Part shown: one piece after another, positions 9,403 through 29,971 of the stretch
How positions within the stretch are numbered: the first letter of the stretch is position 1
How the letters are laid out: each line of letters begins with the position of its first letter
NCBI GenBank assembly: GCA_030706745.1
Contig: JAUZNX010000007.1
Location: forward strand, 141,825-205,824
Origin: Bacteroidota bacterium
GTDB taxonomy: Bacteria; Bacteroidota; Ignavibacteria; Palsa-1295
Length of the DNA: 64,000 nt
Direction: 5' to 3'
Position numbers and translations under genes: made by a program
Notes under the pieces: model-generated
The model's database searches: none
What the model was told of the DNA's origin: nothing
Seen by the model: the letters and a program-made list of their open reading frames with translations, nothing else

Positions 9403-9488
9403 GGACACCTCCATTTGTGATGAGTACGATGAATAACACCGCCACGGACCGAAAGTTACACCCTAAAAGCCACTTTCTTCGGGCTATT

Positions 9489-10490: not shown

Positions 10491-10502
10491 GTGACCACAA
10501 AG

Positions 10503-12163: not shown

Positions 12164-12170
12164 CTGCACA

Positions 12171-12212: not shown

Positions 12213-12213
12213 C

Positions 12214-13482
12214 TCAGGCGTAAAGTGGAAACCTTGCCGTTAGTGATTTGACTTCATCCCTGACCTGGCGCGCAACGCTTTCATCGGCAGGACTAGTAAC
12301 CACTCGATCAATCAATCCTGCGATCAAATCCATTTCGGGTTCTTTCATCCCTCGCGTCGTGATTGCGGCAGTTCCAATACGAATACCACTCGTAATTAGT
12401 GCAGACTTGTCATCATATGGGACTGCATTTTTGTTCACGGTGATCGCAGCCTTGTCCAAGGCTTCTTCCGCAGCTTTTCCGGTGACGTTCTTGCCGCGAA
12501 GATCGGCAAGCATCAGGTGATTGTCGGTACCACCGGATATGATGTAAAAACCTCGTTTGACCAGTTCGTCCGCAAGCCGCTTCGCGTTGCGAATGACCTG
12601 AACTCCGTAAGCTGTAAAGCTATCCTCCAACGCCTCACCAAGTGCGACGGCCTTTGCAGCGATGACATGCATGAGCGGGCCGCCCTGAATACCCGGCATA
12701 ACGGTTGAGTCGATCAACTCCGAGACCATTTTCGTGCGGCCGGATTTTGGCGCAACCGCGCCCCAAGTATTTTCAAAGTCCTTTCCAAGTAAGATCAGCC
12801 CGCCGCGCGGTCCGCGCAGTGTCTTGTGCGTCGTCGAAGTAACGATATGGCAATGTGGAAGCGGGCTCGTGAGATGTCCCTTTGCGATGAGTCCTGCCGG
12901 ATGCGCCATGTCGCACAGCAGAAATGCGCCGACCGAATCAGCGATGGCGCGAAATCGCGCAAAGTCGATATCACGCGAGTAAGCACTCGCGCCGACCGTG
13001 ATCATCTTCGGCTTTGTCGCGTGCGCTTGACGCTCGACATCTTCATAATCGATGTAGCCTGTCTCGCGGGATACGCCGTAGGCACTGAATTGGTAAAGTT
13101 GTCCGGAGAAATTCGCCGGATGACCGTGTGTGAGATGTCCGCCATGCGAGAGGTTCATACCAAGAACGCGATCGCCGGGCTTCAGAAATGTGAAGTATAC
13201 GGCCATGTTGGCTTGCGAGCCGGAGTGCGGCTGCACGTTGGCATACTCTGCACCAAACAGCTTCTTTGCTCGATCGCGCGCAAGATTTTCCACCTGATCG
13301 ACAAACTCACAGCCACCATAGTATCGCTTACCAGGATAGCCTTCAGCGTACTTATTAGTGAGCACGCTCCCCTGCGCGCGCAACACAGCTTGAGATGTGA
13401 AATTTTCGCTGGCGATGAGTTCGAGTCCAGTTTGCTGGCGCTCAAGTTCGCGATCGATTGCACTAAATACTTCTTGATCCAT
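12214..13482 (-). CDS. glyA: Serine hydroxymethyltransferase
   Basis: 422 residues, the usual bacterial length. It interconverts serine and glycine with transfer of a one-carbon unit to tetrahydrofolate, using PLP. Visible hallmarks are LELIASENF near the N-terminus, [24 protein letters not shown], and the PLP-binding lysine in [14 protein letters not shown]. The ATG at 13482 is clear. It is probably monocistronic, with a hairpin directly after the stop. Confidence 0.98.
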
Positions 13483-13539
13483 GGTTGTATAATATAGCTT
13501 CGATAGAAAACCCAGAGAGTCTGTGGGATTCTATCTCAT

Positions 13540-14859
13540 TCACTCTCGACGCGTCGGAACGAACCATTTATCCGACAGACTGACGCTTGCACCCAAACGG
13601 AGGAAGGTCTCTTTCGGCGCAACGCTAGCGTCCGTTGGATTCCGTTGACCAACGGTCAACGAAAGATTCATCAGCGTCTCGAAGCTAAGCGGAATACCAA
13701 GCCCAGCGGAGAGGGCGAGTTCGGTTACTCCACCGGATGATGATGAACCTGTACCGTTTGGAGAAAAGTTGAATCCGGCAACCTCAATGGGAAGTTGACT
13801 ATATGCAAAGCCAAGTCGCAATCCCCAACGATCAAGCCCGAACGATGTACCAAACTCACCAGAAATATTCGGCAGACGTTCGACTCCAACGGAGATACGG
13901 CTACCATTACGAAGTGATGGATCCCCGCTCGAAGTCAATGGCGCGAACACATAGGCGCTCGCAAAATTCTGCGCCGAGTAATCGACTTCAGCCCGATAGC
14001 GATAGCTAAAATGATATGAAATGCCTGCGGCGAAGGAAGATGGATAGTAGCCTTTTCCTGATTCGTCGATCGTCGTGTCGAGGGTGCTGGAAATCGGCGT
14101 GATGATCGTCTCCCGGGTAGCAGTCAGGCTGGCTCCGAGGCTGTAGGAGGCGCCGATGGTAAGGCCGCGAAGACCGTCCGCAATCGAATCACCGATCAGT
14201 TCGATGCCGAATGTCGGACGCAATCCATTAAACAGATAGTCGCGTTCATACTCAGCGGAATCTTGCGTCAGATCGGTAAATGCCAGATGGTCCTGATGCC
14301 GAATATTTCCGGTGATAAGATCGAGCCGTGCGCCGATGGCCAATGCGCTCGCAAGCCGCATTCCTGCGCCGAGAAAGAGCATATTGGCACCACCTCGGCG
14401 AACATATGTCTTCGTTGCCATTGAATCTGACGCTTCGATCTTACCACTTGCATCAGTGAGAGGGACGTACCCGAGCGCAAGCGCAGCGGAATGCTCGCTC
14501 CAGAATGGCACACCAAAAGAAATACCGCTCAGCGTGATATTATGTTGCTGCTCGGTGATTCCGCCAAGCTGATCGTTCGCATAATCATATCGAAGCGCCA
14601 CATTAAAGCGAGCCCGTGTCAGCCAATTCCAGTCGGCCGGATTGATGACGTTTACAACACGAGTCCCTTGCAACGCCACCCCCGTCCCACCCAGCCCTTC
14701 GATCGTTGGATCGGCGGTAGGAAGAGGCGTACCGAACCCAAAGAAGTTATAGGTCGAACCTTGCGCGAAGGCCGAGTTCGTGAAGACAAACCATGTAAAA
14801 ACAAGCACTGCAAGCGTCATTGCGAGGGAAGAGATGCTATCCAGTCGGGATTGCTTCAT
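13540..14859 (-). CDS. Outer-membrane beta-barrel protein, FadL/OmpP1-like
   Basis: About 439 residues with a signal peptide (MTLAVLVFTWFVFTNSAFAQ) and a long mature part of alternating amphipathic strands, Gly/aromatic-rich, for example IGARLDLITGN and LRLGFAYSQLPIEVAGF. The general look is that of Bacteroidota FadL/OmpP1-like barrels; ligand unknown. The start is ambiguous. ATG 14910 overlaps the previous stop (ATGA), ATG 14859 has AAGGAG just upstream, and ATG 14820 gives the shortest signal peptide. All codons between 14820 and about 14886 are encoded by the palindromic repeat at 14816-14886. Confidence 0.75.
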   Translation of the reverse strand: MKQSRLDSISSLAMTLAVLVFTWFVFTNSAFAQGSTYNFFGFGTPLPTADPTIEGLGGTGVALQGTRVVNVINPADWNWLTRARFNVALRYDYANDQLGGITEQQHNITLSGISFGVPFWSEHSAALALGYVPLTDASGKIEASDSMATKTYVRRGGANMLFLGAGMRLASALAIGARLDLITGNIRHQDHLAFTDLTQDSAEYERDYLFNGLRPTFGIELIGDSIADGLRGLTIGASYSLGASLTATRETIITPISSTLDTTIDESGKGYYPSSFAAGISYHFSYRYRAEVDYSAQNFASAYVFAPLTSSGDPSLRNGSRISVGVERLPNISGEFGTSFGLDRWGLRLGFAYSQLPIEVAGFNFSPNGTGSSSSGGVTELALSAGLGIPLSFETLMNLSLTVGQRNPTDASVAPKETFLRLGASVSLSDKWFVPTRRE

Positions 14860-14886
14860 CGCTCCTTCGTCGCTTCTCGCAATGAC
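14816..14886. repeat. Palindromic repeat element at the start of a gene
   Basis: 71 bp bounded by GTCATTGCGAG (14816-14826) and CTCGCAATGAC (14876-14886), with GAAGCGACGAAG-like and GCAATC-like internal words. This matches the general form of a palindromic repeat found dispersed in many bacterial genomes. It overlaps the 5' end of the barrel gene and supplies its possible start codons and Shine-Dalgarno sequence. A fragment of the same word (GTCATTGCGAA) occurs near 6169. Confidence 0.75.
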
Positions 14887-14906
14887 AGTATGAGAGGCGA
14901 TTCGCG

Positions 14907-16154
14907 TCATGGCAACTTGGAATAGGAAAGAATGAATTTCGGCCGCTTTGTTGGGTCCGTCGCGTCCTGACCATAAAATGTCCAGCGGTTGATCGTATTG
15001 TCTTCAACACCGAATGCGTCTCCGGCGACAAATGTCCGCGTGTTATAGCCTGCGCGCAATTCGAACCCGAAGTTTTTCGTAGGATTGCGCAGCCAGTACT
15101 CGACTAATGTTCGTATTTGGAAATGATAAATATTCGGATCGCTCGCGTCGTGGTATCCGCTGGCAAAGAGTGCAGCGCCGGTATCATTCGTACCTAACAA
15201 CTGCACGATCGCAGGCCCCGCTGTGTCAAACGAAAGCGTCGAACGCCGAGATCGTGCCGGGTCCAGACTCAGGATCAACTCAGCACTATTAATAGTCGAA
15301 AATGCAGTGAGCTGTGCCGTATCGCCAGGTCGGGTCAGTGACAATGTGTCGAAAACGCGCCATCCTGTACTGCCGCGTAACATAAACTCGCCAGCAGGAG
15401 TCGGATCGCTTTGGTCCATCGCAATGTGAAGATCCTTCAGCGCCGTCAAGCGCGTCACTAGAATTCCGGTATCGACTTTAATGCTATACTCGATTTGGGG
15501 CCGCGCGTTCGTATCGCCGCTTTCCATTGAGCCGAATCCCCGTGCCGTTGTCATGGTTGCACCAGGCGCGACCACAAAGGCAAGTGAAGCCGAGCGAAGG
15601 TCTTTCTTAACAATGGATGTATCGATCGAGAAAGCCAGAACGCTGTCGTTCACATCGGCGAAATCGCCCTGAAATGAGCCCAGTGGCGTTGAAACAAGCG
15701 CGGACTTCGATAGAGAGGTCAACGAATCGAGATAGGCGCCAGCCAGCGGAGAATATTCGTAGACTTGCAAGTCCAGCCGGTTCGGGCTTGTAGTCGTATC
15801 TCCATACTTATATGTTTGGTCCTTCAGCAGCAAGCGAATCCCAACGACTTTAGCGATCGTCGTGTCGGGAAGTGTCGGGAATTGAAGCACGCCCCAGGAC
15901 TCGATATTTTCACCTTGCGTGACCTTGCCCACGATCAGGAGCGGTGAGAAGAGCGTAATCGAATAGGTGTTCCCACCGAGCACGATTCTCGGCACCGAAA
16001 CTGGCCGCATCTTCATAAAGCCGGTATCCGTGCGGATGGTACGGTTGAACTGCACGGTATCCCGATAATACGGCGCGCCGAGCGTCGAGACTTTTTCCTC
16101 ACAGCTCGATACCACCAGAGCCAGGCAGAGAAGAACGAAAAGACGAAGAGTCAA
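14907..16154 (-). CDS. Secreted lipoprotein, possibly DNRLRE-like, unknown function
   Basis: About 415 residues from TTG at 16154, which gives an ideal lipoprotein signal (MTLRLFVLLCLALVVSSC, Cys18). The only in-frame ATG upstream is at 16322, inside glgA; it would add 56 residues before the signal and has no ribosome-binding site. The mature protein is beta-rich. Near the end, VEYWLRNPTKNFGFELR followed by DATDPTKRPKFILSY resembles the end of DNRLRE-type domains seen in secreted proteins. The stop overlaps an ATG of the barrel gene (ATGA), suggesting co-translation and a shared outer-envelope role. Confidence 0.7.
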   Translation of the reverse strand: MTLRLFVLLCLALVVSSCEEKVSTLGAPYYRDTVQFNRTIRTDTGFMKMRPVSVPRIVLGGNTYSITLFSPLLIVGKVTQGENIESWGVLQFPTLPDTTIAKVVGIRLLLKDQTYKYGDTTTSPNRLDLQVYEYSPLAGAYLDSLTSLSKSALVSTPLGSFQGDFADVNDSVLAFSIDTSIVKKDLRSASLAFVVAPGATMTTARGFGSMESGDTNARPQIEYSIKVDTGILVTRLTALKDLHIAMDQSDPTPAGEFMLRGSTGWRVFDTLSLTRPGDTAQLTAFSTINSAELILSLDPARSRRSTLSFDTAGPAIVQLLGTNDTGAALFASGYHDASDPNIYHFQIRTLVEYWLRNPTKNFGFELRAGYNTRTFVAGDAFGVEDNTINRWTFYGQDATDPTKRPKFILSYSKLP

Positions 16155-16275: not shown

Positions 16276-17823
16276 TTAAGTCTTCTTACTGGGGCACAAG
16301 ATCTTTTCGTAGACTTCGGCATATCGAATTGCGGATGCGTCCCAGGAAAAATCCTGTTTCATCCCATTGGCCTGCAGCGTACGCCACAGTTTCTTGTCTT
16401 TATAGTAGGCGTGAAGCGCGCGCTCGAGCGCCTTCCAAAATGCTTTCGCATCATATTTCTCGAATGTAAACCCGGTTGCCGGAAGACGCTTCGTTCCATC
16501 TTCGACGTCGATGACCGTATCGGCCAATCCACCCGTCTTGCGGACGACAGGGATCGTGCCATAGTGCATCGAGTACATCTGATTCAGCCCGCACGGTTCA
16601 TAGGCACTCGGCATTAAATAAATATCGCTACCCGCTTCGATCTTGTGTGCAAAATTATCATGGAATCCGAAATGTACGCCAATCTGGTCCGGGTGTTTCT
16701 TCTGGAGCTTGCGGAATAGGTCCTCGTAGCGTTTCTCGCCCTCACCGAGCAATACAAACTGGGCGCCGCTCTTGATAAGTGGTTCCATGCACTCCGCTAC
16801 GAGATCGAACCCCTTCTGGTCTGATAGCCGCGCGATCATGCCGAGAACAGGCTGGTCCTCTTTGTAAGGAATTCCCATCGCAAAGCAAAGGTCTTTCTTA
16901 CACTCTTCTTTGCCTGAGAGATCATCGACGGAAAATGGCCGCACAATGTTCACATCCTTGAGCGGGTCCCAAACCAAAAGATCGATCCCATTCAGAATCC
17001 CATATAGATCCTTTTTGCGCTTGGCGAGGATTCCTTCCATGCCGCAGCCGAACTCCGGCGTGCGAATTTCTTCAGAATATGTTTCACTCACGGTCGCAAT
17101 CGCGTCCGCGTACGCGATACCCGCCTTGAGGTATGAGACCCTGCCAAAGAACTCGAGTCCCTGAGGCGAGAATGCCTCAGGTGGTAGAGCAAGTTTTGGG
17201 AATGTCGTTTCCGGGAAGTTACCCTGATATGCCAGATTGTGAATGGTGAAGACTGTTTTCGTACCCTCGAAGAACGGGTCGTCTTTGTAAATCAGCTTCA
17301 TCAATGCCGGGACGAGCCCACTTTGCCAATCATTGCAATGGATGATATCCGGCTTCCACATGAGCCGCTTGCACAATTCGATCGCCGAAAGAGCATACAT
17401 CAGAAATCGCTCATCGTTATCGGGATAATCCTTTCCGGTCTCAGGATCGAGATAGATGCCCATCCGCTGAAAGTACTCTTCGCTTTCGAGCATGTACATC
17501 TGAATGCGCGTCTTCTGCGTAAGAATCGCGCTCGACTTGATATTTGCGACGCAGTACTTGTCGCCGATCTTAAAATCGACGCCTTGCAGGCGGTTGATCA
17601 GATGAATCTTCTGCTTCTTCTCGCCAATAAATCCATACTTCGGCATGAGGACGCGAACATCGTGGCCAAGCATGCGGAGCTCCTGCGGTAACGCGGAGCT
17701 AACATCGGCCAGACCGCCAGTCTTCGCATAGGGAAAGACTTCAGTCGAGAGAAACAGCACGCTGCGCGGAGGGAATTTCGCCGGCGGTAGCGTCATCTGA
17801 GCGGCGCCACGGGGTTGACTCAT
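16276..17823 (-). CDS. glgA: Glycogen synthase (ADP-glucose)
   Basis: About 515 residues of glycosyltransferase family 5. It has the N-terminal ADP-glucose motif YAKTGGLADV, the mid-protein CNDWQSGLVPALM and the C-terminal PSAYEPCGLNQMY with the KTGGLADTV loop. It elongates alpha-1,4-glucan. ATG 17823 (MSQPRG) is preferred over 17880 because GAGAAG lies just upstream and the extra 19 residues are unlike GlgA. No other glycogen gene is next to it. A small inverted repeat CTGAGG/CCTCAG at about 16232-16255 follows the stop. Confidence 0.97.
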   Translation of the reverse strand: MSQPRGAAQMTLPPAKFPPRSVLFLSTEVFPYAKTGGLADVSSALPQELRMLGHDVRVLMPKYGFIGEKKQKIHLINRLQGVDFKIGDKYCVANIKSSAILTQKTRIQMYMLESEEYFQRMGIYLDPETGKDYPDNDERFLMYALSAIELCKRLMWKPDIIHCNDWQSGLVPALMKLIYKDDPFFEGTKTVFTIHNLAYQGNFPETTFPKLALPPEAFSPQGLEFFGRVSYLKAGIAYADAIATVSETYSEEIRTPEFGCGMEGILAKRKKDLYGILNGIDLLVWDPLKDVNIVRPFSVDDLSGKEECKKDLCFAMGIPYKEDQPVLGMIARLSDQKGFDLVAECMEPLIKSGAQFVLLGEGEKRYEDLFRKLQKKHPDQIGVHFGFHDNFAHKIEAGSDIYLMPSAYEPCGLNQMYSMHYGTIPVVRKTGGLADTVIDVEDGTKRLPATGFTFEKYDAKAFWKALERALHAYYKDKKLWRTLQANGMKQDFSWDASAIRYAEVYEKILCPSKKT

Positions 17824-18030
17824 AACTTCTCGTGTACGGCCTAAAAAATTGTCGTATATTAGACTGATTGAATATGACATGTCATCCGCCTAAGCGGACG
17901 AAACGTCCTACAAAAATACGGAATTTCTGTCCTCACTCCGTGAGATCGATGAAATAGTGCAACTTGGGCCCACCAAAGACAGCGCCGGGAACAGCCTTGC
18001 TTTGATACGGAGTTAAGGGGCCGCACACCT

Positions 18031-18112
18031 GGAAGGCTGGCACAATGGTACTGCAGCAGTCTTGAAAACTGCCGCCCGCAAGGGCTTCCGAGTTCGAATC
18101 CCGGGCCTTCCG
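18031..18112 (+). tRNA. tRNA-Ser (anticodon TGA)
   Basis: 82 nt folding as a class II tRNA: acceptor GGAAGGC/GCCTTCC, D-stem GCA/TGC with GG in the loop, anticodon stem GCAGT/ACTGC with loop CTTGAAA (anticodon TGA at 18063-18065), long variable arm GCCC-GCAA-GGGC, T-loop TTCGAAT and discriminator G. The T-stem has one A-C mismatch. CCA is not encoded. The flanks at 17881-18030 and 18113-18344 hold no convincing gene. Confidence 0.96.
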
Positions 18113-18244
18113 CAAGAATTCGCCGCAAGTCCTTATATGCCAATGACTTATTACCTTTCCAAAAGTGTTGATTCATTTTGGTTAGCATCACTGTAGCAAC
18201 AAATTTGTGAGCTTTGGGGAGAATCGAGGGTGAATTAGTCGAAT

Positions 18245-18265
18245 AGAGTCCTCAGCGAAGACTCT
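18245..18265 (-). terminator. Weak hairpin downstream of the BNR-like T9SS gene
   Basis: AGAGTC (18245-18250) and GACTCT (18260-18265) form a 6-bp stem about 80 nt past the stop at 18345 on the minus strand. There is no T-run, so the assignment as terminator is tentative. Confidence 0.35.
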
Positions 18266-18344
18266 TCCCGGAATCGTCCAATTGCATGATCGAAGGCCAA
18301 CACGAGAGGCAATCTTGCAAATAGGAGAATTCTCAGAGAGTAAG

Positions 18345-19673
18345 CTATTCCTTCACAACCTTGACCGTCTGCACCTCGCCAGTGCCGAGGAAGACGCGGA
18401 CGAAATAGACGCCCATTGGGAGGCCGCCAACATCGATGATTGCCATGCTCGCCTCCCGTCGTTCGTTGGCAGCAGCCACACGGCCGAGAACATCAAGCAC
18501 CTCCACCCGCGACGCGCTCTCCGACGACGACACGGTAAGAGTGCCGCAAGCAAGCGAAACAGAAAGATTCGTTGAAGGGGGTCCGGGGCTCTCTTTCACA
18601 CTCGACTCAGGATCGATCTTCTCCCACAGACCATCGAAAAAAGGACCGTAAGCACTACTGTCATATGCTCTCGAAGCGATCGTGACAGTTTTATTGCTAT
18701 AGAATCGAGAAAGGCCATTCGCTGGCCAAGATGGGCCACCCTCACGATGCCAAGTGATACCTTCGTCTGTCGACTTGTACATTCCCGAATCCATCGTCTG
18801 AAGGTAGAGGTGTTTCAGTGTTCCTCGAATAATCGGCAAGACAACGGCTGAATCATTCGGGGCGGCAATGAGACTCCAGTTCATTCCAGAATCATCGCTC
18901 CGCCATACTCGAAAACCATCGTGCCCTTCGACTTCGAAATATGTTGACGTGCCCGGAATAGCCAGCGGCTGAAAGGCATAACCATTTGCATACCGGTTAA
19001 ACGGCTGATGTCCCATTCGCCATGTCACGCCGCCGTCCGATGTCACAAACACATGGGAGAGACTATCGATCACGGTGGGAGTGCCCGATGTCGGAAGGTA
19101 CACTATAGGATTGGTAACGACGATTCCATTCGCGGGAGAAGTAAATGCAAACGCGACGGCACACTTAATTGGCGTACGTTCCCAAGTATCGCCCTGATCG
19201 TTTGAAACCAGCATCACGGAATCGACGAGTCCAAGAAAGAGCCGGTTTGAGAAATCCGAATAATAAACAGCAAACGGATCTGGATCACCAGAAATGGGGG
19301 TATATAATGGCTTCCAGGAGTATCCCCCGTCCGTTGTTTGAAAACAAAGATAATGTGTGCCAATGGCTTGTGAGACGGCCCATCCTAAGAGGGTGTCCTT
19401 AAAAACAATGTCATAAGCAAAGTATGGTTCATTCTTGCTGCTCAAACGAAACCAGCTATTTCCACCGTCCGTGGTCTTCCAAAGATCATCAGCGCATGCG
19501 AAGCCAATCCGAGGTGGCCCCGGAAGATCCAAGAAATAAACACAATTAATTTGTTCTTCTCTCTGAGTGACACTGTCTTTGAAGCTTCCTATCCTTTTCC
19601 ATTGCCCATCAGCGGGCTGTGCCCAAAAAGCACAGCCCACAATCGCAAGGCAAGCGAAGACTCGTGTCCTCAT
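18345..19673 (-). CDS. Secreted BNR/Ycf48-like repeat protein with T9SS sorting tail
   Basis: 442 residues: signal peptide (MRTRVFACLAIVGCAFWAQP), then beta-propeller-type repeats with the sialidase/Ycf48 signature (LWKTTDGGNSW, CFQTTDGGYSW, SNDQGDTW, SDDSGMNW, STDEGITW). The C-terminus has the form of a T9SS sorting domain (VEVLDVLGRV ... GLPMGVYFVRV ... QTVKVVKE). It is expected to be exported by Sec and anchored or released by T9SS. It starts one base after the stop of the small ORF at 19675. Confidence 0.88.
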   Translation of the reverse strand: MRTRVFACLAIVGCAFWAQPADGQWKRIGSFKDSVTQREEQINCVYFLDLPGPPRIGFACADDLWKTTDGGNSWFRLSSKNEPYFAYDIVFKDTLLGWAVSQAIGTHYLCFQTTDGGYSWKPLYTPISGDPDPFAVYYSDFSNRLFLGLVDSVMLVSNDQGDTWERTPIKCAVAFAFTSPANGIVVTNPIVYLPTSGTPTVIDSLSHVFVTSDGGVTWRMGHQPFNRYANGYAFQPLAIPGTSTYFEVEGHDGFRVWRSDDSGMNWSLIAAPNDSAVVLPIIRGTLKHLYLQTMDSGMYKSTDEGITWHREGGPSWPANGLSRFYSNKTVTIASRAYDSSAYGPFFDGLWEKIDPESSVKESPGPPSTNLSVSLACGTLTVSSSESASRVEVLDVLGRVAAANERREASMAIIDVGGLPMGVYFVRVFLGTGEVQTVKVVKE

Positions 19674-20029: not shown

Positions 20030-21379
20030 ATGGCATCCATTCTTTTCGTCGACGATGAACTTTCAACCCGCGACAACTATCGTACAATTCTCGAACACTA
20101 TGGGCATCAGGTAACGCTCGCTTCTAACGTGCAGGAAGGCGTCAATCTGCTTTCCTCGAATGGAGTGTTTGACCTCGTTATTACCGATATGCGAATGGGT
20201 TCGGAAAGTGGGCTCGACATGCTCAGGCAAGCAAGGACGCTCGCGCCGGAAACCGAGGTCATCGTTCTAACGGGTCATGCTCAACTCGAGAACGCTGTCG
20301 AGGCGATGAAGCTTGGCGCGGCGGACTATCTCACGAAAGAGACGGACTACAAAGAAATCATGCTGGTCGTCGAGAAGGCGTTGGAAAAGCGCACGCTCAA
20401 GCAAGAGATCGAGCGATTGCGCAAACGGGTCGGCAACGAGTTCTCGTTTCGGAAGATTGTCGGCCAAAGCCCAGCGATCCTGCAGCTTCAGGATACATTA
20501 CGCCGGGTCGCTCCAACGACATCGCGCGTTCTTATAACGGGCGAGTCAGGCACGGGTAAAGAGCTGATTGCGGAAACGATTCACACAAATAGTCCCCGCA
20601 AGGACGCGCCATTTATCGCCATCAACTGTGGCGCAATTCCACGGGACTTGTTAGAGAGCGAGTTATTCGGTTACGTTCGAGGTGCGTTCACTGGCGCCGA
20701 TCGTGATAAGACAGGCCTCTTAGCATCGGCAGATCGTGGGACAGTATTTCTCGATGAGGTTGGTGAGATGTCGCTTGAGACGCAGGTCAAATTACTGCGG
20801 TTCCTCGAACAGGGAGAGATTGCACCCGTCGGAAGCACGAAGACCAGAATCGTGGATGTCCGCGTCATCGCAGCGACGAACCGGGACCTCGCGGAGGCGG
20901 TCCGCACTCATTCCTTTCGCGAGGACCTGTATTATCGCCTCAAGGTCATTTCGGTTCACCTGCCGCCACTTCGCGAACGGAAACAGGACATCCCGTTGCT
21001 TGCTGAAGCTCTCCTACGGGAGCTTGCAATGAAAGCCGGACGCAAAGTCTATCGCATCTCGGCAGATGCCATGCGCGGACTGGCGGACTATGACTGGCCC
21101 GGCAACGTACGTGAGCTCAAGAATGTCATCGAGCGCGCTCTCATTTTTGCAGATGGCGATCAGATCGAACTCGAACACCTCCCAGAAGAACTATTTCTGC
21201 ATCCGGCGATCGCATCTGGCCAGCTTGAGAACGGTGTTGTCCCGCTTGATGAGGTAGAGAAGAAGTATATCCTGGACCTGCTCGAACGAAACGGGGGCAA
21301 CAAACTCCAAACCGCGAAGCAACTCAATATCGCCACCACGACGCTGTACCGCAAACTCAGGATGTACGGGATCGAGTAG
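20030..21379 (+). CDS. Sigma54-dependent response regulator, NtrC family
   Basis: 449 residues: receiver domain (VDDE pocket, phospho-Asp near residue 53 in VITDMRM), AAA+ domain with Walker A GESGTGKE, the sigma54 loop GAFTGA and the WPGNVREL motif, and a C-terminal Fis-type helix-turn-helix (NKLQTAKQLNIATTTLYRKL). It should activate sigma54 promoters after phosphorylation, most likely by the kinase at 22409-23683. It directly precedes the Kdp genes, where KdpE, an OmpR-type regulator, would be expected in enterobacteria. Two small hairpins follow at the stop (21376-21390 and 21399-21413). Confidence 0.96.
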   Translation: MASILFVDDELSTRDNYRTILEHYGHQVTLASNVQEGVNLLSSNGVFDLVITDMRMGSESGLDMLRQARTLAPETEVIVLTGHAQLENAVEAMKLGAADYLTKETDYKEIMLVVEKALEKRTLKQEIERLRKRVGNEFSFRKIVGQSPAILQLQDTLRRVAPTTSRVLITGESGTGKELIAETIHTNSPRKDAPFIAINCGAIPRDLLESELFGYVRGAFTGADRDKTGLLASADRGTVFLDEVGEMSLETQVKLLRFLEQGEIAPVGSTKTRIVDVRVIAATNRDLAEAVRTHSFREDLYYRLKVISVHLPPLRERKQDIPLLAEALLRELAMKAGRKVYRISADAMRGLADYDWPGNVRELKNVIERALIFADGDQIELEHLPEELFLHPAIASGQLENGVVPLDEVEKKYILDLLERNGGNKLQTAKQLNIATTTLYRKLRMYGIE

Positions 21380-21467
21380 CAGAATGCTACGGGTCACCGT
21401 AGCGAAACGCTATACGCATGCTCGTGGCGGATAGCGAAACAGTGCGAGTTTGTTCGATTATCTGTTC

Positions 21468-21483
21468 TGGCACCGGTTGTGTA
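21468..21483 (+). promoter_or_regulatory. Weak candidate sigma54 promoter before the kdp-associated genes
   Basis: TGGCACCGGTTGTGTA has the -24 element TGGCAC and correct spacing, but the -12 element reads GTGTA instead of TTGCA. It would start transcription almost at the ATG at 21497, making a leaderless message. It is listed because the upstream regulator needs sigma54. Confidence 0.2.
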
Positions 21484-21496
21484 TTCTCTCTCTGCC

Positions 21497-22174
21497 ATGA
21501 AAGCACTCGCCATTGCCATCGGGCTCGCCGCAGTATTCCCTAATCTTTGTCGCGCACAGCAGACAATCTTTAACGTCCCCAGTCAGGACGTGCTGGCACC
21601 TGGTTCGGTCTATGCTGAAGTCGATGGATCGTTCCGAACCAATGAACCAAGGTTCGTAGCAATAACGCCGCGTGTCGTCTTCGGTTACGGATACAATTTT
21701 GAAGGGGGTCTCAATCTTCCCGGTTACATCAACATAGGTGATAAGCTTTGGGCGGCGCACATTACGCTGAAACATGGTCAGGTGCTGGATACGACAGCTC
21801 CCTGGACTCTGACGGAAGGTGTCCATCTCTATTTACCGCTGACATCGGGTCGCACCGTGGCCTTTTTCGCGTACGCGATGACAGGATACAAGCTCGCCAC
21901 GAAGCTACGTCTTGATGGCGGCGTCTATATCGCAACGGACGCATTCACTGGCATCGGCAATGTGGTCGGGGCGCTCGGCAGCATCGAGTATGCTCTGAAT
22001 GATTGGCTCACGCTCGCGCTTGATGCCTACTCGGGACAGAATGCACTGGGATTTGTCACGCCAGGACTCTTCGTCGGTCCCTTCGGCAAATGGATCCTCT
22101 ATCCGGCCTACCAAATCTCGAACGTCTCCCGCGATGGCGACAGCTTTCTCGTTGAGATAGGATATAGCTTCTAA
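21497..22174 (+). CDS. Small outer-membrane beta-barrel protein in the kdp cluster
   Basis: About 225 residues: signal peptide (MKALAIAIGLAAVFPNLCRA), then Gly/aromatic beta-strand-rich sequence ending in the outer-membrane-type terminal strand FLVEIGYSF. No family was recognised. An outer-membrane protein between a sigma54 regulator and its kinase, followed by kdp genes, suggests a porin-like role in cation passage; this is inferred from position. ATG 21497 is preferred over an alternative start at 21479 because it begins a compact signal peptide. Confidence 0.72.
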   Translation: MKALAIAIGLAAVFPNLCRAQQTIFNVPSQDVLAPGSVYAEVDGSFRTNEPRFVAITPRVVFGYGYNFEGGLNLPGYINIGDKLWAAHITLKHGQVLDTTAPWTLTEGVHLYLPLTSGRTVAFFAYAMTGYKLATKLRLDGGVYIATDAFTGIGNVVGALGSIEYALNDWLTLALDAYSGQNALGFVTPGLFVGPFGKWILYPAYQISNVSRDGDSFLVEIGYSF

Positions 22175-22408
22175 ATGTTCGCGGCAACTCTCAACGGAGC
22201 CTTCATTGGCAGCGTCGTACCCGCCGCAATATGGGTCGGACGGGCGAACGATGCCAGAATCCTGCAGCGCGCAAGCCAGATGCGCCAACAGGCGGCGTTC
22301 GCTCGATCTGCGCGGTGGGTCGGTGGAAGTAACGATCTGCTCTTAACTGGGCATCCCGCACATATCATCGGCGCATACCGTAGTTTTGGAGACAATCCAA
22401 GACGACCC

Positions 22409-23683
22409 ATGGCCAACCGCATCCTGGAACGAGGTCTTCGCATCCGCATTTTGACGGGTTTCTCGCTCGTCATTTTTCTTACGCTTCTGATTGCGGGGTG
22501 GTCATATTACAGCATCACCTCGTTGGGCCGCGTGGCTGAGAACGTATTCATTGCGAACTACCGCAGCATCCAATACGCCCACAGGATGGAGCACGCCGTC
22601 GACGCCCTCCTCGACTCGCGTCCTGGCTCTGCCGCGATCCGAAGTACAGATGCCGCCTTCCATGAGGCGCTGGATTTGGAATTTCATAACATTACAGAGC
22701 GAGGCGAACTGGAAGCGGCGCGAACGATTGAAGCCTCTTATAAGGAATTCTATACTGCTTTGATCTCCGGTGGCACGTCCAATCTCACGGCCATGAGCAG
22801 CGAGGTCATGGCCGCCATCGAGCGAATGCTCCGTCTCAACGAGCGCGCGATGTTCGCCCGGTCGGACGCGATGATCGAGAAAGCGAATATCGCTCGGACC
22901 TCTACACTCGTCATCACTGGATTGCTCGTTAGTATTGCGATCCTGCTTGCCGTTGCCGTCTCAAGGAGAAGTCTCGCCGAGTTTCAGGAGTTGGACCGTG
23001 CCAAAAGCAATTTCGTGGCAACGGCGGCGCACGAACTGAAGAACCCGCTCAGTGCCATCAAGACAACGAGCGCACTATTGCGAGATGGGATTGCCGGGCC
23101 AATCAGCGAGAAGCAAGCCGAACTCGTCACCAGTATCCAAACCGAATCCAATCGGTTGTTGAGTCTTGTCGGTGAATTGCTCGACCTTGCGAAGCTTGAA
23201 ACAGGAACACTGGAACTTCAGCGCTCTGTGGTCGATGCCGATACCCTGATCGAGAGCGCCATCATGCCGATTGCCATGCACGCAGATCGTGCGAACGTTG
23301 GCATCGACATCGTCGTGATGCCGGATGTACCTGAGCTATCAGTCGATCCGAACAAGATGGCATGGGCGATAACGAACTTGCTGTCGAACGCCATTCAGTA
23401 CTCTCCGCGTGGCGCATCAGTCGAGATCCGAGCCAGTGCAATTGAGCGCGAAGTCTGGCTATCCGTGACCGATCATGGCAAAGGCATCCCGGAAAAAGAT
23501 ATCGAACGCATCTTCGAGAAGTTCGCACAGGTCGAGGCCGGCGCAATGGGCGCTGGCTCCGGCTCGGGACTTGGACTTGCTATCGCGCGAGAGATCGTCC
23601 AAGCCCACGGTGGTCGCATTTGGGCCACGAGCAGTCTTGGCCAGGGATCGACATTCACGATTGCGCTGCCACTCACAGTTTAA
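22409..23683 (+). CDS. Membrane sensor histidine kinase (probable Kdp regulator)
   Basis: About 424 residues: membrane helix (around 12-34), a helical sensor region of about 130 residues, a second helix (around 165-186), then HisKA with HELKNPL (His208), N-box NLLSNAIQYSP, G1 DHGKGIPEKD and G2 GSGLGLAIAREIV. The frame is open from 22175, right after the previous stop, but those 78 codons lack any signal or helix and are unlike kinases, so ATG 22409 is preferred. It is the likely partner of the regulator at 20030 and replaces the kinase half missing from the KdpD-like protein at 28250. Confidence 0.9.
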   Translation: MANRILERGLRIRILTGFSLVIFLTLLIAGWSYYSITSLGRVAENVFIANYRSIQYAHRMEHAVDALLDSRPGSAAIRSTDAAFHEALDLEFHNITERGELEAARTIEASYKEFYTALISGGTSNLTAMSSEVMAAIERMLRLNERAMFARSDAMIEKANIARTSTLVITGLLVSIAILLAVAVSRRSLAEFQELDRAKSNFVATAAHELKNPLSAIKTTSALLRDGIAGPISEKQAELVTSIQTESNRLLSLVGELLDLAKLETGTLELQRSVVDADTLIESAIMPIAMHADRANVGIDIVVMPDVPELSVDPNKMAWAITNLLSNAIQYSPRGASVEIRASAIEREVWLSVTDHGKGIPEKDIERIFEKFAQVEAGAMGAGSGSGLGLAIAREIVQAHGGRIWATSSLGQGSTFTIALPLTV

Positions 23684-23694
23684 TCACACAACAC

Positions 23695-23778
23695 ATGGAA
23701 GATCTCCTATACGTTGCCATCATCATCGCCTTCTTCGCGATTTCCATCGCGTTCCAGGCTTATTGCGACAGGATATAA
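23695..23778 (+). CDS. 27-residue membrane peptide of the kdp operon
   Basis: A tiny gene: MEDLLYVAIIIAFFAISIAF followed by QAYCDRI and stop. One membrane helix with an acidic start and a short polar tail. Similar peptides of this size are often found just ahead of kdpF. It lies 11 nt after the kinase stop and 4 nt before kdpF, in the same orientation. It may stabilise the Kdp complex; function is unproven. Confidence 0.7.
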   Translation: MEDLLYVAIIIAFFAISIAFQAYCDRI

Positions 23779-23782: not shown

Positions 23783-23866
23783 ATGAGCGGAATTATACTT
23801 CTCGGCCTCGTCATCGCGGTCATCGCGTACCTCATGTATGCGTTGCTCTATCCTGAAAAATTCTAA
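23783..23866 (+). CDS. kdpF: K+-transporting ATPase subunit KdpF
   Basis: 27 residues: MSGIILLGLVIAVIAYLMYA then LLYPEKF. A single membrane helix ending in the typical KdpF tail (YALLxPEKF). KdpF is a small stabilising subunit of the KdpFABC potassium pump. It lies 9 nt upstream of kdpA. Confidence 0.93.
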   Translation: MSGIILLGLVIAVIAYLMYALLYPEKF

Positions 23867-23875: not shown

Positions 23876-25603
23876 ATGACTGCCAACGGCATCTTACAAC
23901 TCGTAGCCTATCTCGTGGTGCTCATTCTCATCACGAAACCGATGGGGGTATTTCTTACGAAAGTCTTTCGCGGAGAGCGAACGATCCTGACGCCCTTCGT
24001 GGGCGGCCTGGAACGTCTGATCTACCGGCTCTGCGGCATTCATCCAGAGACCGAAATGAAATGGACAGCATATTCCGGCGCCATGCTGATATTTAGCGCC
24101 GTGACCGGGCTTGTACTCTATGGGATGCTGCGGTTTCAGCATGTGCTTCCGTGGAATCCGCAAGGTTTCGGCGCCGTCGCGCCCGATCTCAGTTTCGGAA
24201 CCGCGATGAGCTTCACCACCAATACCAACTGGCAGGCATACAGCGGCGAAACGACAATGAGTTACTTCACGCAGATGGCTGGCCTTGCCTTCCACAATTT
24301 CGCTTCGGCTGCGGTCGGCATCGCAATCGCTTTGGCTGTCGTGCGAGGTCTGGTTCGTTCGTCAGTACAAACAATCGGCAACTTCTGGGTCGATCTCGTT
24401 CGCTGCACGCTTTATGTGTTACTGCCGATGTCGATTGTCGCTACCATCATCTTCATCGCAACCGGGATGATCCAGAACCTCTCGCCATACGTAGTGGCCA
24501 CAACGCTCGAAGGCGCCAAACAAACCATTGCGATGGGACCAGTCGCATCCCAAGAGGCAATCAAGATTCTTGGCACGAACGGTGGCGGGTTTTTCAATGC
24601 AAATTCCGCGCACCCATTTGAAAATCCTTCGGCGCTGACCAACTTCATTCAAGTTATCCTCATCTTTTCCATTGGCTCCGGTCTGACCTATATGTTCGGT
24701 CGCATGGCAAAAGACCAAAAGCAAGGCTGGGCAATTTGGGGTGCAATGACGTTCCTCTTTCTGGCTGGGCTGATGACATGCTACACCGCAGAACAATCTG
24801 GAAACCCGATCACGGAAAAGCTCGGCATCCAGCGCACAGCAACCGACACACAGCCTGGCGGCAACATGGAAGGGAAAGAAGTCCGCTTTGGGATTGCGCA
24901 GAGCACCCTCTTCGCAACTGTAACGACCGATGCATCCTGCGGTGCGGTGAACTCGATGCACGAGAGTTACACGCCGATCGGCGGGATGGTCACGCTCTTC
25001 AATATCTTGCTTGGCGAAGTGATCTTTGGTGGTGTCGGAGCAGGGCTGTATGGGATGATGATCTTCGTGATTCTTTCGGTCTTCATCGCAGGCCTCATGG
25101 TTGGACGAACGCCTGAGTATCTCGGCAAGAAAATCGAATCCAAAGAGGTGAAGCTCTCGATGCTCGCGCTTCTCTCGATGGCATTCTGTATCCTCGGTTT
25201 TACGGCATGGGCGGTAGTCAATCCGGCGGCGCTCAAGAGCCTTGCCAACGCTGGGCCTCATGGACTCACCGAAATCCTTTACGCTTTCGCTTCGGCGACA
25301 GGGAACAACGGGTCGGCCTTTGCGGGACTAAGTGCCAACACACAGTTCTATAATCTCACGCAAGGGCTATCCGAACTGGTCGGTCGCTTCTTCGTGATTG
25401 TGCCGATGCTTGCTGTTGCCGGAAGCATGGCGCGCAAGACGGCGGTCGCACCTTCATCAGGCACATTCCTGACCAATACCCCACTTTTTAGCACCTTGCT
25501 TGTGATGGTCATTATTATCGTCGCTGGACTTACCTTCTTTCCCGCGCTATCGCTCGGTCCTATTCTGGAGCACCTGCTTATGGGTGCCGGCAAATTATTC
25601 TAA
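23876..25603 (+). CDS. kdpA: K+-transporting ATPase subunit KdpA
   Basis: 575 residues, slightly longer than the Escherichia coli protein (557). A multi-pass membrane protein with the K+ selectivity-filter regions of the SKT superfamily: TNTNWQAYSGE, GTNGGGFFNANSAHPFENP and SATGNNGSAF are visible. It takes up potassium from the periplasm and passes it to KdpB. It follows kdpF by 9 nt and precedes kdpB by 12 nt. Confidence 0.98.
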   Translation: MTANGILQLVAYLVVLILITKPMGVFLTKVFRGERTILTPFVGGLERLIYRLCGIHPETEMKWTAYSGAMLIFSAVTGLVLYGMLRFQHVLPWNPQGFGAVAPDLSFGTAMSFTTNTNWQAYSGETTMSYFTQMAGLAFHNFASAAVGIAIALAVVRGLVRSSVQTIGNFWVDLVRCTLYVLLPMSIVATIIFIATGMIQNLSPYVVATTLEGAKQTIAMGPVASQEAIKILGTNGGGFFNANSAHPFENPSALTNFIQVILIFSIGSGLTYMFGRMAKDQKQGWAIWGAMTFLFLAGLMTCYTAEQSGNPITEKLGIQRTATDTQPGGNMEGKEVRFGIAQSTLFATVTTDASCGAVNSMHESYTPIGGMVTLFNILLGEVIFGGVGAGLYGMMIFVILSVFIAGLMVGRTPEYLGKKIESKEVKLSMLALLSMAFCILGFTAWAVVNPAALKSLANAGPHGLTEILYAFASATGNNGSAFAGLSANTQFYNLTQGLSELVGRFFVIVPMLAVAGSMARKTAVAPSSGTFLTNTPLFSTLLVMVIIIVAGLTFFPALSLGPILEHLLMGAGKLF

Positions 25604-25615: not shown

Positions 25616-27658
25616 ATGGCAAAACACGAAATCCATCAACAGAAGAAGCTCTTCGACGCGCCGATTGTCAAACGCGCCAGCTTCGATGCGCTGAAGAAAC
25701 TCGACCCGCGCATTCTATACAAGAATCCGGTGATGTTCGTCGTCGAGATCGGCGCGGTGCTCACGACCTACTATTGGGTTCTCGACTTGGATAGGGCCGT
25801 GCATGGCGATGCCTTGTTCTCAGGTCTGATTTCGGCGTGGCTGTGGTTCACGGTGCTCTTTGCAACGTTTGCCGAAGCCATGGCCGAAGGGCGCGGCAAG
25901 GCTCAAGCTGACGCACTTCGCAAGACGAAGACCGAAACCGTTGCAAAGCAAATAGGCAAGGATGGCAATACCGCACAAGTCAGCGCCACCATGCTCCGTA
26001 AAGGCGATGTGGTGCTGGTCGAGGCCGGTGATGTCATTCCCGGCGATGGTGATGCGATCGAAGGCATCGCCTCGATTGACGAGTCCGCGATCACCGGCGA
26101 GTCCGCACCGGTCATTCGTGAAAGCGGCGGCGACCGGTGCGCAGTCACTGGCGGCACGCGCGTCATTTCGGATTGGCTCAAAGTCAAAATCACCTCGAAT
26201 CCGGGCGAGACGTTCATCGACCGGATGATTTCGCTCGTCGAAGGTGCTTCACGCCAGAAGACACCGAACGAAATTGCGCTCACGATCCTGCTCGCGGGCA
26301 TGACGATCATATTCTTGATCGCCGTCGTCGCACTGAGTTTTTTGGGGCAGTACTTATCGACCACGATCTCCGTCGTCGTTTTGATCTCGCTTCTCGTGTG
26401 TCTGATCCCTACGACCATCGGCGGCTTGCTGTCAGCGATTGGTATTGCGGGTATCGACCGAGTGTTGCAACGCAATGTGCTTGCCATGTCGGGTCGCGCG
26501 GTCGAAGCCGCCGGCGATGTGAATACACTTCTTCTGGATAAAACGGGGACGATCACCATTGGCAACCGGATGGCAACGGAGTTTCTGCCCGCACCTGGCA
26601 TTACGCTCGAATATCTCTCACAAACGATCCACTTATCCAGTCTTGCGGATGAGACTCCCGAGGGCCGCAGCATTGTCGCGCTCGCACAACAGACTGTCAA
26701 GGAGTTACCAGAGGACTTGTTCAAGGCCGATAAGACTTTCATTCCGTTTTCCGCACATACGCGCATGAGTGGCGTGGATATTGGCGGTCGTGCGATTCGC
26801 AAAGGCGCAGTTGATGCGATCTCAAAACTTGCTGGCCTGAATGGAATGCCAGCCGAACTGACCGTGCAGGTCCAGCGAATTGCCACTTCAGGCGGAACGC
26901 CCCTCGCCGTGGCGGAGGATGGAAATATCCTTGGTGTGATCCATCTTAAGGACATTGTGAAGCAAGGGATGCGCGAGCGGTTCGATCAGTTGCGCACCAT
27001 GGGAATCAAGACGGTGATGATTACCGGCGATAATCCACTGACCGCCAAAGCGATTGCGATGGAGGCCGGCGTAGATGATTTCCTCGCCGAGGCCACGCCC
27101 GAGACCAAGATGGCCCTTATTCGCAAAGAGCAAGCGAGTGGCAAGCTTGTTGCCATGACTGGCGATGGCACAAACGATGCACCGGCGCTGGCGCAAGCCG
27201 ATGTCGGCGTCGCAATGAACACCGGCACCATGGCCGCAAAAGAAGCGGCTAATATGGTCGATCTCGATAGCAACCCGACCAAACTCATTGAGGTCGTCGA
27301 GATCGGCAAACAACTGCTCATGACTCGTGGAGCCCTGACCACGTTCAGTATTGCTAACGATGTCGCGAAATACTTCGCGATCATTCCAGCGATGTTCATG
27401 GCGGCGTTCCCCGAACTGCGCGCGCTGAACGTCATGGGATTGCACTCTCCAGAAAGTGCGATACTGTCAGCGGTCATATTCAATGCGCTTATCATCATAG
27501 CTCTTGTGCCACTTGCGCTCAAAGGCATTAAATACCGTCCGCTTGGCGCGGCAGCGGTGCTCCGGCGCAACATTCTGGTCTATGGCGTAGGTGGTGTTAT
27601 CATCCCATTCGTCGGCATCAAGGCGATCGACCTCATTGTATCGGCATTCGGAATTTGA
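25616..27658 (+). CDS. kdpB: K+-transporting P-type ATPase subunit KdpB
   Basis: 680 residues, the usual size. P-type ATPase hallmarks are the TGES actuator motif ([10 protein letters not shown]), the phosphorylation site DKTGT (Asp308), the membrane motif [20 protein letters not shown] read in part, [10 protein letters not shown] and [17 protein letters not shown]. It hydrolyses ATP to drive potassium uptake through KdpA. The TGA stop overlaps the GAAGG ribosome-binding site of kdpC. Confidence 0.99.
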
Positions 27659-27669
27659 AGGTTACGACT

Positions 27670-28248
27670 ATGATAAAGACAATCATCACATCTACCATCA
27701 TGACTGTCATCCTGACGGTGCTCGTTGGCATCGTCTATCCGCTGGCGATGACGGGAATCGCTCAACTCGTGTTTCCGAAGCAGGCGAATGGCAGTCTCAT
27801 CGAACGCGATGGCAAAGTGATTGGCTCGGAATTGATCGGGCAGCAGTTCGCAGACGCGAAGTTCTTCCGATCCCGACCGTCGGCTGCCGGCACTGGCTAT
27901 GATGCGGCAAACTCTGGCGCGACCAATCTCGGGCCGACCAGCAAGGCACTCATGGATCGCCTGACTCACGATCGCGATTCGCTTCGCAAACTCTATCCTG
28001 AGCTTGCTGGTGCGTTACCCGCCGACATGATTACCAGTTCGGCTTCGGGGCTCGATCCGGACATTACCATTGCGAATGCCATGCTGCAGGCGAAGATCGT
28101 GGCGCGAACGAATAATCTTCAAATGGATGCCGTTGAAGCACTTGTGAGGTCGCACATTCAGGGCCGCGATCTGGGATTTTTAGGCGAGCCACGAGTCAAC
28201 GTACTTGCACTCAATCTCGATCTGCTGAAGCATCGCAAGCAACCGTAA
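27670..28248 (+). CDS. kdpC: K+-transporting ATPase subunit KdpC
   Basis: 192 residues: one N-terminal membrane helix (TIMTVILTVLVGIVYPLAM) and a periplasmic domain with the family motifs FRSRPSA, SGATNLGPTSKAL, DMITSSASGLDPDI and the final LGEPRVNVLALN (read here as FLGEPRVNVLALNLDL). ATG 27670 is chosen because GAAGG lies just upstream; a TTG at 27655 overlapping the kdpB stop is the alternative. KdpC stabilises the complex and aids potassium affinity. Confidence 0.97.
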   Translation: MIKTIITSTIMTVILTVLVGIVYPLAMTGIAQLVFPKQANGSLIERDGKVIGSELIGQQFADAKFFRSRPSAAGTGYDAANSGATNLGPTSKALMDRLTHDRDSLRKLYPELAGALPADMITSSASGLDPDITIANAMLQAKIVARTNNLQMDAVEALVRSHIQGRDLGFLGEPRVNVLALNLDLLKHRKQP

Positions 28249-28249: not shown

Positions 28250-29971
28250 GTGACCGAATCTCTATCAGTCGAAGATCTCCTGCACGAGATCAAATATGCG
28301 AAGGAAAGTCCGCTCCGAATCTATCTCGGCGCGGCACCGGGCGTTGGAAAAACGTATCGGATGCTCCAGGACGGGAATGCGCTGAAGCGCCGCGGCGTCG
28401 ATGTGGTCGTCGGTTATGTCGAGCCGCATGAGCGCCCTGACACGCTCAGCCAGGTCGGTGAGCTCGAAGTCATTCCTCCGAAAACTTACGAGTATAAGGG
28501 TGTGTCGCTCCGGGAAATGGATACTGATGCAGTCATCGCCAGGAAGCCCGAAGTCGTCCTCGTTGACGAACTTGCACACACCAATGCTCCAGGTACGAAG
28601 CACGTAAAGCGATACGAGGACATCGAGGATATTCTCGCAGCAGGAATTGCGGTCTTCAGCACCTGCAATATCCAGCATTTGGAGAGTGTCCACGATATGG
28701 TGGAACGGATGACCGGCGTGGAAGTAAAGGAACGCGTGCCCGACACATTCTTTAGTCTTGCGCGCGAAATGATTATCGTCGATGTAACCCCCGACGAACT
28801 CCGCGAACGTCTCGAACAAGGCAAGATTTATCCAAAAGAGCGCATCGAGCGGTCGCTCAAGAATTTTTTCACTCGCAGCAATATTAGCATGTTGCGAGAG
28901 TTGGCATTACGGGAACTCGCCAACGATGTTGAGCAAAAGGATAAAGAAGCGCGGCACGAAACGAATACGCCGGGCACTGCGGCGAGCGGCGAAAAGGTCC
29001 TTGTGGCAATACCGGCGACATCAGCCGCTCAAAAGCTTGTTCGCTATGGCTCCCGCATGGCCGGTCGTATGAACGCGAAATGGATTGCCGCCTTCGTCGA
29101 AGCGGAGGATACGAAACCCACGGAGCAAGAGGCCAACACATTGCGAGAAGCCTTCGCGCTGGCTCGCTCGCTTGGCGCGACGGTCGTTCAATTGCGGGGT
29201 CGCTCAACCGCCGAAACGCTTATCCATTTTGCCAAGGAAGAAGGAATAACACAATTCGTGATCGGCGCGACACAACGCGCTTGGTGGAAGCGACTCATTT
29301 CGCGCTCAGTGGTCGGCGATTTGCTGAAGCAGGTGGGCGAGGTCGGTGTCTCTATCGTGCCGATGAGGAAAGAGGACTCAGATGGCGACTTACTTCCCGC
29401 ACCGCCATCGGTGCTACCACCGCACGACGAACGACTTCGACTGTCGGACTTCCTCCGGCCTCAATTTATTGTTGCCAATCTTCGAAATGTCGAAACGGTG
29501 GAACAAGCAATCTCAGTGCTTATCGATCAACTGATCCAGCAGGCGCCCGGCCTCTCGCAGTATCGGACGGAGATTCTGGATATGATTATGCGGCGCGAAC
29601 GGCTGATGAGCACATTCCTCGATACCGGTATTGCCATTCCTCACTCGGCGGGTTACGAAGCGATCACGGACATTCATGCCATGATGGCGCTTACTCCGCA
29701 AGGCGTCATGTCGTTGGGGCGCGACGAGAAAGCCTACATCGTCCTCCTCTTTCTTTCACCTGCGGTCGGCCGTGCAAATCACCTCAAATTTCTCGCTGCC
29801 ATCGCGCGAGTCTTCATCGACAAGACTACTACGCGTGAAATCGCGAACCTGGATTCAGGTCTGGCGGCGTATGAGTTCATCGCAAAACTGGAGTCTCTAG
29901 GACGAGCTGGCGGCAACTATCACCCACCTTCGCAGGAGCAAGAACGGAAGAACGGATCGGCTGATCATTGA
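28250..29971 (+). CDS. Kinase-less KdpD: KdpD sensor domain + universal stress domain + PTS EIIA(Ntr)-like domain
   Basis: 573 residues from GTG 28250, one base after the kdpC stop. Residues 1-215 are the KdpD N-terminal domain (Walker A GAAPGVGKT at 27-35, EVVLVDELAHTNAPGTKH, the CNIQHLESVHD segment). About 236-370 is a UspA-type domain (KVLVAIPATSAAQKLVRYGS ... ATQRAWWKRLISRSVVGDL). About 395-550 is an EIIA type-2/PtsN-like domain with the phospho-acceptor GIAIPH (His465) and LGRDEKAYIVLLFLSP. KdpD membrane helices and the histidine kinase are absent. In E. coli EIIA(Ntr) binds KdpD; here the two are one polypeptide. It probably modulates the kinase at 22409 or the pump (inference). Confidence 0.9.
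   Translation: MTESLSVEDLLHEIKYAKESPLRIYLGAAPGVGKTYRMLQDGNALKRRGVDVVVGYVEPHERPDTLSQVGELEVIPPKTYEYKGVSLREMDTDAVIARKPEVVLVDELAHTNAPGTKHVKRYEDIEDILAAGIAVFSTCNIQHLESVHDMVERMTGVEVKERVPDTFFSLAREMIIVDVTPDELRERLEQGKIYPKERIERSLKNFFTRSNISMLRELALRELANDVEQKDKEARHETNTPGTAASGEKVLVAIPATSAAQKLVRYGSRMAGRMNAKWIAAFVEAEDTKPTEQEANTLREAFALARSLGATVVQLRGRSTAETLIHFAKEEGITQFVIGATQRAWWKRLISRSVVGDLLKQVGEVGVSIVPMRKEDSDGDLLPAPPSVLPPHDERLRLSDFLRPQFIVANLRNVETVEQAISVLIDQLIQQAPGLSQYRTEILDMIMRRERLMSTFLDTGIAIPHSAGYEAITDIHAMMALTPQGVMSLGRDEKAYIVLLFLSPAVGRANHLKFLAAIARVFIDKTTTREIANLDSGLAAYEFIAKLESLGRAGGNYHPPSQEQERKNGSADH

Follow-up and report, generated by a model that had tools for sequence, protein, structure and literature searches.

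A KdpD-Usp-EIIA fusion protein encoded with potassium uptake genes in Bacteroidota: a predicted serine kinase with a candidate phosphotransferase input

What is the role of a KdpD protein that has no histidine kinase of its own, ends in an EIIA domain of the phosphotransferase system (PTS) and is encoded directly behind kdpC? The question is raised by a 64,000-nt stretch of the genome of a Bacteroidota bacterium (GCA_030706745.1, contig JAUZNX010000007.1; hereafter the window). All features of the window given below lie on the forward strand.

Domain structure of the fusion protein

The gene at 28250..29971 (GTG start) encodes a chain of 573 aa, characterized by its open reading frame and by profile and fold comparisons. 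The original prediction placed KdpD, Usp and EIIA domains in this single chain, and the matches to Pfam PF02702, Usp and PF00359, together with the folds, confirm it. The KdpD domain (residues 20-227, positions 28307..28930; PF02702, 304.9 bits) carries the Walker A motif GAAPGVGKT of the G-X5-GKT form (residues 27-35, 28328..28354), read from the sequence and mapped onto E. coli KdpD, and the Walker B pair Asp106-Glu107 (28565..28570), which corresponds to D109/E110 of E. coli. The Usp domain (residues 248-361, 28991..29332), recognized by profile, alignment and fold, has RxxxR-x8-W at 265/269/278, part of the motif given for E. coli-type KdpD (PMC4686210). The Pfam Usp match is found in most Kapabacteria-type fusions and in few Chlorobiaceae ones, the domain being assigned in the latter by alignment.

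The C-terminal part does match PTS_EIIA_2 in the profile search (residues 401-545, 29450..29884; PF00359, 55.4 bits, curated cut-off 27), and its predicted structure has the EIIA-Ntr fold. The score against the PtsN model TIGR01419, 40.2 bits, is below the NCBIfam cut-off of 138.7; judged by its sequence, the fused EIIA is PtsN-like and not a PtsN. Conservation was followed in 202 proteins, the window protein among them, in which KdpD and EIIA domains are combined; they come from the matches listed in two protein searches, and their number is a lower bound. The phospho-acceptor His465 named in the original prediction (codon 29642..29644) is invariant in all 202 fusions listed, as are Arg449, Glu450 and Thr455, while His511 (codon 29780..29782), aligned to the second histidine of the EIIA active site, is kept in 201 and falls in a gap in the remaining one. 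The EIIA domain may accept phosphate at His465. The standalone PtsN-like protein of the same genome (G000:C10; L002/L074) has its acceptor His in FAIPH and an Arg aligned to His511.

Neither transmembrane helices nor a histidine kinase were found in the chain, which is therefore not a full-length KdpD sensor kinase. In the predicted structure of the whole fusion (pTM 0.46) the mutual arrangement of the domains is undefined. A frameshift joining two genes, or an assembly artefact, was considered and rejected, since the identical domain chain recurs in many clusters and genomes.

E. coli KdpD is reported to be an atypical serine kinase that phosphorylates Ser162 of KdpB and shuts the pump off, its residues 1-230 being sufficient for this phosphorylation (Silberberg et al. 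2024, PMC11018627). According to the same source, the short KdpD/Usp protein of D. geothermalis (DgKdpD) phosphorylates the KdpB Ser under c-di-AMP. The residues of the fusion were mapped by alignment onto E. coli KdpD, with those reported necessary for KdpB phosphorylation as the reference. G27/G33/K34/T35 of Walker A, D106/E107 of Walker B and R187, the adenine Arg, all align with their E. coli counterparts. Among the fusions listed, the equivalents of E. coli D109/E110/R190 are kept in 202/202, and the Walker A Lys and Thr in 197/202, with gaps in the other five rows. The position of E. coli W39, occupied by Tyr36 in the window protein, is aromatic in 180/202, Leu in 18 and a gap in four; Tyr can probably stand in for Trp here. 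The candidate target is likewise present, as Ser163 of the window KdpB (codon 26102..26104, in TGES) maps to E. coli Ser162.

The original prediction spoke of a chain with no kinase. This holds for the histidine kinase and the KdpD membrane helices, but the KdpD domain keeps the residues for KdpB phosphorylation as they are reported in PMC11018627, and we predict it to be a serine kinase for this pump subunit. DgKdpD resembles it in combining KdpD with Usp, in having no transmembrane, GAF or histidine kinase parts and in keeping the catalytic residues, and in some species short chains of this kind are reported to be encoded 3' of the pump (PMC11018627). Unlike DgKdpD, the window protein has a C-terminal EIIA domain; moreover, DgKdpD takes c-di-AMP as its input, and the synthase of this nucleotide was not found in the 33 Chlorobiaceae fusion carriers examined. 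The closest curated model, NF038185 (KdpD-like non-kinase potassium sensor), is covered in positions 5-370 of 373 by residues 6-370 of the fusion, but it stops ahead of the EIIA domain, and the score of 404.4 bits is under its curated cut-off of 550. In the text of PMC11018627 consulted, no EIIA-carrying form of KdpD is mentioned, and no description of a KdpD-EIIA fusion was found among the open-licence papers searched by title or opening of abstract.

Gene row of the window and candidate regulatory sites

The row includes an NtrC-type sigma54 response regulator with the GAFTGA motif (20030..21379; profile and sequence). It is followed by a 231-aa protein with a signal-peptide-like start and no Pfam match (21479..22174, likely start 21497), whose slot is occupied by a BBP2 porin in two related loci (L037 and L038). 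The separate membrane kinase that the original prediction placed earlier in the row is present at 22175..23683 (likely start 22409), with two hydrophobic helices, HisKA and HATPase (profile and sequence). Behind it are a 27-aa hydrophobic ORF (23695..23778), with similar ORFs at the corresponding position in L037, L038 and L040, and a second ORF of 27 aa, presumably kdpF from its position and resemblance (23783..23866). The profile-assigned genes kdpA (23876..25603), kdpB (25616..27658) and kdpC (27655..28248, likely start 27670) follow, with the fusion directly behind kdpC. Transcription is likely handled by the membrane histidine kinase and the NtrC-type regulator of this row.

The palindrome TAGCGAAACGCTA at 21400..21412, a candidate operator of the kdp row, has one exact copy in the genome. 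Its looser form TAGCGNNNCGCTA yields two sites in the 3.8 Mb genome, compared to 22 for the reversed control pattern, and is found ahead of the kdp row in 5/5 genomes of the genus covering the region (the window genome and four others). With one mismatch allowed, there are three matches in the window versus 1.3 expected, a number reached by 12 of 100 shuffles, so the evidence lies not in the window count but in the genome count and the conservation. The NtrC-type regulator may bind at this palindrome. A related sequence, TAGCAGAATGCTA, starts at 21377. In a relative (L055), a BBP2 porin and a further kdpA are encoded (16695-19541) divergently from the kdp row of the fusion, with palindromes between them (16534) and at 19857.

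Sigma54 promoters are not enriched in the window (15 matches, 15.8 expected from shuffles), and the best sigma54-like site before the gene of the 231-aa protein is weak (20.5 of 26). In 6/11 Chlorobiaceae loci, sites scoring at least 22 of 26 occur within 150 bases before the histidine kinase gene, namely 22-51 bases before it (L064, L062, L065, L068, L077, L078); a score of 22 was reached in 8 of 5000 shuffles of one 59-base stretch and in 109 of 2000 shuffles of one 450-base stretch.

Distribution, gene order and origin

The fusion is a real, conserved domain combination. In the search with the window protein, 82 of the best 120 matches have KdpD and EIIA domains (its own entry included, the others at 50-86% identity), the names, where given, being Candidatus Kapabacteria, Kapaibacterium, Bacteroidota and Elusimicrobiota. 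In the search with a member of family f24, both domains are present in all 120 best matches, named, where a name is given, Chlorobiaceae, Chlorobiales, Chlorobium or Chlorobaculum, Chlorobium limicola DSM 245 among them; by the names of the matching proteins, f24 is Chlorobiaceae. Every one of the 63 matches (E <= 1e-8) to a query with the EIIA part only contains a KdpD domain as well, in a search covering proteins of about 315-1000 aa, so that standalone EIIAs were outside its reach. Three proteins (P0051, P0090, named Aphanocapsa, a cyanobacterium, and P0091, named Cytobacillus) are tandem KdpD-Usp-KdpD-Usp chains of 752-785 aa.

The idea of a rare chain did not survive the genome survey. 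Among 296 genomes of the phylum, 35 have a match spanning into EIIA, two of them from the window genus and 33 from f24, and one more f24 genome (G260) has a fragment of the fusion at a contig edge. In the family of the window genome, the fusion occurs in 7/13 genomes, which are 7/7 of the genus, and in two other genera of this family (G208, G298) the chain is unfused, of about 400 aa.

That the fusion always follows kdpC, as the original prediction considered, is true of many loci, but not a strict rule: in the 23 Chlorobiaceae loci, it is accompanied by kdpB in 15, while in eight there is no kdpB in the stretch (L067 and L136 reach contig ends). In G161 and G221, two genomes with such loci, the same contig has the kdp row or another fusion further away. 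A histidine kinase gene stands before kdpA in 5/5 Kapabacteria loci reaching that far (window included) and in 15/15 Chlorobiaceae loci with kdpB; over all Chlorobiaceae loci, a histidine kinase match is found in the row of the fusion in 22/23, the exception being L140. The regulator adjoins the histidine kinase in most fused kdp rows, though it was not seen there in L037 and L038. In the single Elusimicrobia locus (L043), kdpABC and the fusion have no histidine kinase or regulator match among the ORFs over 1-15923. In the unfused loci, the histidine kinase is directly 3' of KdpD in 11/11 and the regulator is before kdpA in 9/11. One unfused relative (L060, genome 67% complete) has a separate EIIA gene between the regulator and kdpA (1882-2361).

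Several Chlorobiaceae loci have a KimA-type transporter between the regulator and the histidine kinase; the copy of L076 matches PDB 6s3k at 1.9e-64, and the others were assigned by their match to L076. In L076, L134, L137 and L141 the row is regulator, KimA-type permease, histidine kinase and fusion, with no kdpABC in the stretch. The W39 position is Trp, Tyr or Phe in 15/15 Chlorobiaceae loci with kdpB, and Leu in six of the eight without it (Trp in L140 and L141). All 18 Leu-form proteins listed retain His465, and they differ from other fusions at three more conserved positions of the KdpD domain. The Leu form probably arose as one event: its three members in the KdpD tree are grouped with 100/100 support, and the remainder were assigned to it from residues they have in common.

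In this tree, the fusions of Chlorobiaceae are found together with unfused Bacteroidota sensors (99/97), those of Kapabacteria together with the Elusimicrobia ones (100/100). The topology test speaks against uniting all fusions in a single clade (p-AU 0.032; 0.0575 when the tandem rows are left out). The EIIA tree has all fusions on one side, weakly (86/37) and with long branches meeting there. In the EIIA tree, kinship of the fused Chlorobiaceae EIIA with the PtsN of the same organisms was not rejected (p-AU 0.247), while grouping of the Kapabacteria/Elusimicrobia EIIA with Kapabacteria PtsN was (p-AU 0.022).

Phosphate supply, proposed mechanism and alternatives

Of the 57 genomes covered by the family searches, the fusion is encoded in 40 and an unfused short KdpD in 14 (G298 and 13 of the 37 genomes with an unfused short frame in the phylum sample); three have neither. 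HPr is encoded in 40/40 fusion genomes and the EI N-terminal domain in 38/40, the two misses being 88% and 91% complete. The permease domain PTS_EIIC (PF02378), the one permease family covered, was found in none of the 54 genomes searched, all 40 fusion genomes among them. Five of the 14 genomes with unfused short KdpD have HPr and EI, and nine have no EI, HPr or any PTS_EIIA_2; the association of the fusion with EI and HPr is confounded by kinship, since all nine fall outside the two fusion families. The window genome itself encodes HPr, EI and the separate PtsN-like EIIA, and the link between PTS phosphorylation and potassium uptake that the original prediction suggested is plausible.

Less can be said for its idea that the fusion makes the known contact of PtsN and KdpD permanent. 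In the E. coli system the same two protein families act jointly on potassium uptake, but PtsN (EIIA-Ntr) is there a free protein acting on the HisKA domain of a full-length sensor kinase, whereas in the window the EIIA domain is covalently part of the fusion and HisKA belongs to a different protein. The reported binding sites of PtsN are HisKA in the KdpD of E. coli and GAF in that of S. fredii (PMC9239096), and the domain search found neither in the fusion chain. Permanence of the E. coli contact is therefore not enough to describe the fusion, whose EIIA would act either in cis on KdpD/Usp or in trans on the separate kinase of the row. A kdp-linked EIIA gene is also described in alpha-proteobacteria, where a second ptsN lies inside kdp operons (PMC13104625), though as a separate gene and not as a fused domain.

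We propose that the fusion is a KdpB serine kinase whose activity depends on whether its own EIIA domain is phosphorylated, and give this reading an even chance; the kinase activity, its coupling to EIIA and the direction of the coupling are what we infer here from conserved residues. Phosphate would pass from PEP through EI and HPr to His465. With the relay charged, phosphorylated EIIA would release the kinase, KdpB would be phosphorylated at Ser163 and the pump would stop. With the relay drained, unphosphorylated EIIA would hold the kinase off and potassium uptake would be allowed, a sense that would match E. coli, in which the unphosphorylated form of PtsN turns on kdp transcription. The membrane histidine kinase and the NtrC-type regulator of the row would control transcription, and the fusion may also contact them.

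In the main rival, the fusion serves the membrane histidine kinase of its row as a cytoplasmic input subunit, docking on it and tuning transcription of the importer as free PtsN does with KdpD in E. coli, and the KdpD domain is a scaffold or nucleotide sensor. In favour of this rival are the histidine kinase matches in the same row (22/23 Chlorobiaceae loci, 5/5 Kapabacteria loci reaching upstream of kdpA), the copies without kdpB, which adjoin a histidine kinase in 7/8 and keep His465 while the ATP pocket has Leu in 6/8, and the binding of PtsN to HisKA in E. coli, as reported in PMC9239096. Still, we consider it rather unlikely, as the kdp-linked copies retain the residues for KdpB phosphorylation and the Elusimicrobia fusion has no histidine kinase match nearby; moreover, unfused short KdpDs directly precede the histidine kinase gene in 11/11 loci, so adjacency to this gene alone says little on EIIA.

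Alternatively, c-di-AMP could control the serine kinase of the fusion through Usp, as in the short KdpD of D. geothermalis, with only a minor or structural role of EIIA. The Usp fold does match the c-di-AMP-bound structure 7ji4, and diadenylate cyclase is encoded in 7/7 Kapabacteria genomes of the genus, including the window genome, which leaves room for c-di-AMP input in this genus; but it was found in 0/33 Chlorobiaceae fusion genomes, which makes c-di-AMP input unlikely there, and the invariant active-site residues of EIIA would be superfluous in a structural leftover. The cyclase occurs in 11/14 genomes with unfused short KdpD, and the three without it are also without the EIIA fusion. The c-di-AMP motif of the S. 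aureus KdpD Usp domain, SXS-X20-FTAXY (PMC4686210), in a slightly relaxed form, matched 0/202 fusions listed, but equally 0/12 unfused relatives, and was discarded as a discriminator. On balance, control by c-di-AMP seems improbable. Least probable, to a degree that we would hardly expect it, is that EIIA is a phosphate sink or an ordinary duplicate with no effect on potassium. A further EIIA is encoded in 39/40 fusion genomes, so that the fusion is not needed as EIIA supply; this reading has to face the fusion adjoining kdp or KimA/HK genes in every complete locus read, and the EIIA gene inside the kdp row of the unfused relative L060.

The proposed EIIA-controlled KdpB kinase has a candidate input covalently attached in a natural chain, and some of its hosts have no c-di-AMP enzyme. 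The unfused relatives, and the copies distant from kdpB in which the ATP pocket is altered, are natural controls, and the fusion is encoded by a named strain, Chlorobium limicola DSM 245. Tentatively, and at somewhat under even chances, the fusion would represent a third class of input to KdpD serine kinases, namely the PTS relay acting by fusion, as opposed to direct potassium sensing or c-di-AMP, with the energy state switching pumps off directly through a regulatory-only PTS. In Chlorobiaceae, the module would have been copied to a KimA-type importer, and one lineage would have lost the aromatic residue of the ATP pocket and would work via the histidine kinase alone. If true, potassium uptake in these bacteria would be tied to their carbon and energy state not through transcription only, but also through an ion pump controlled post-translationally.
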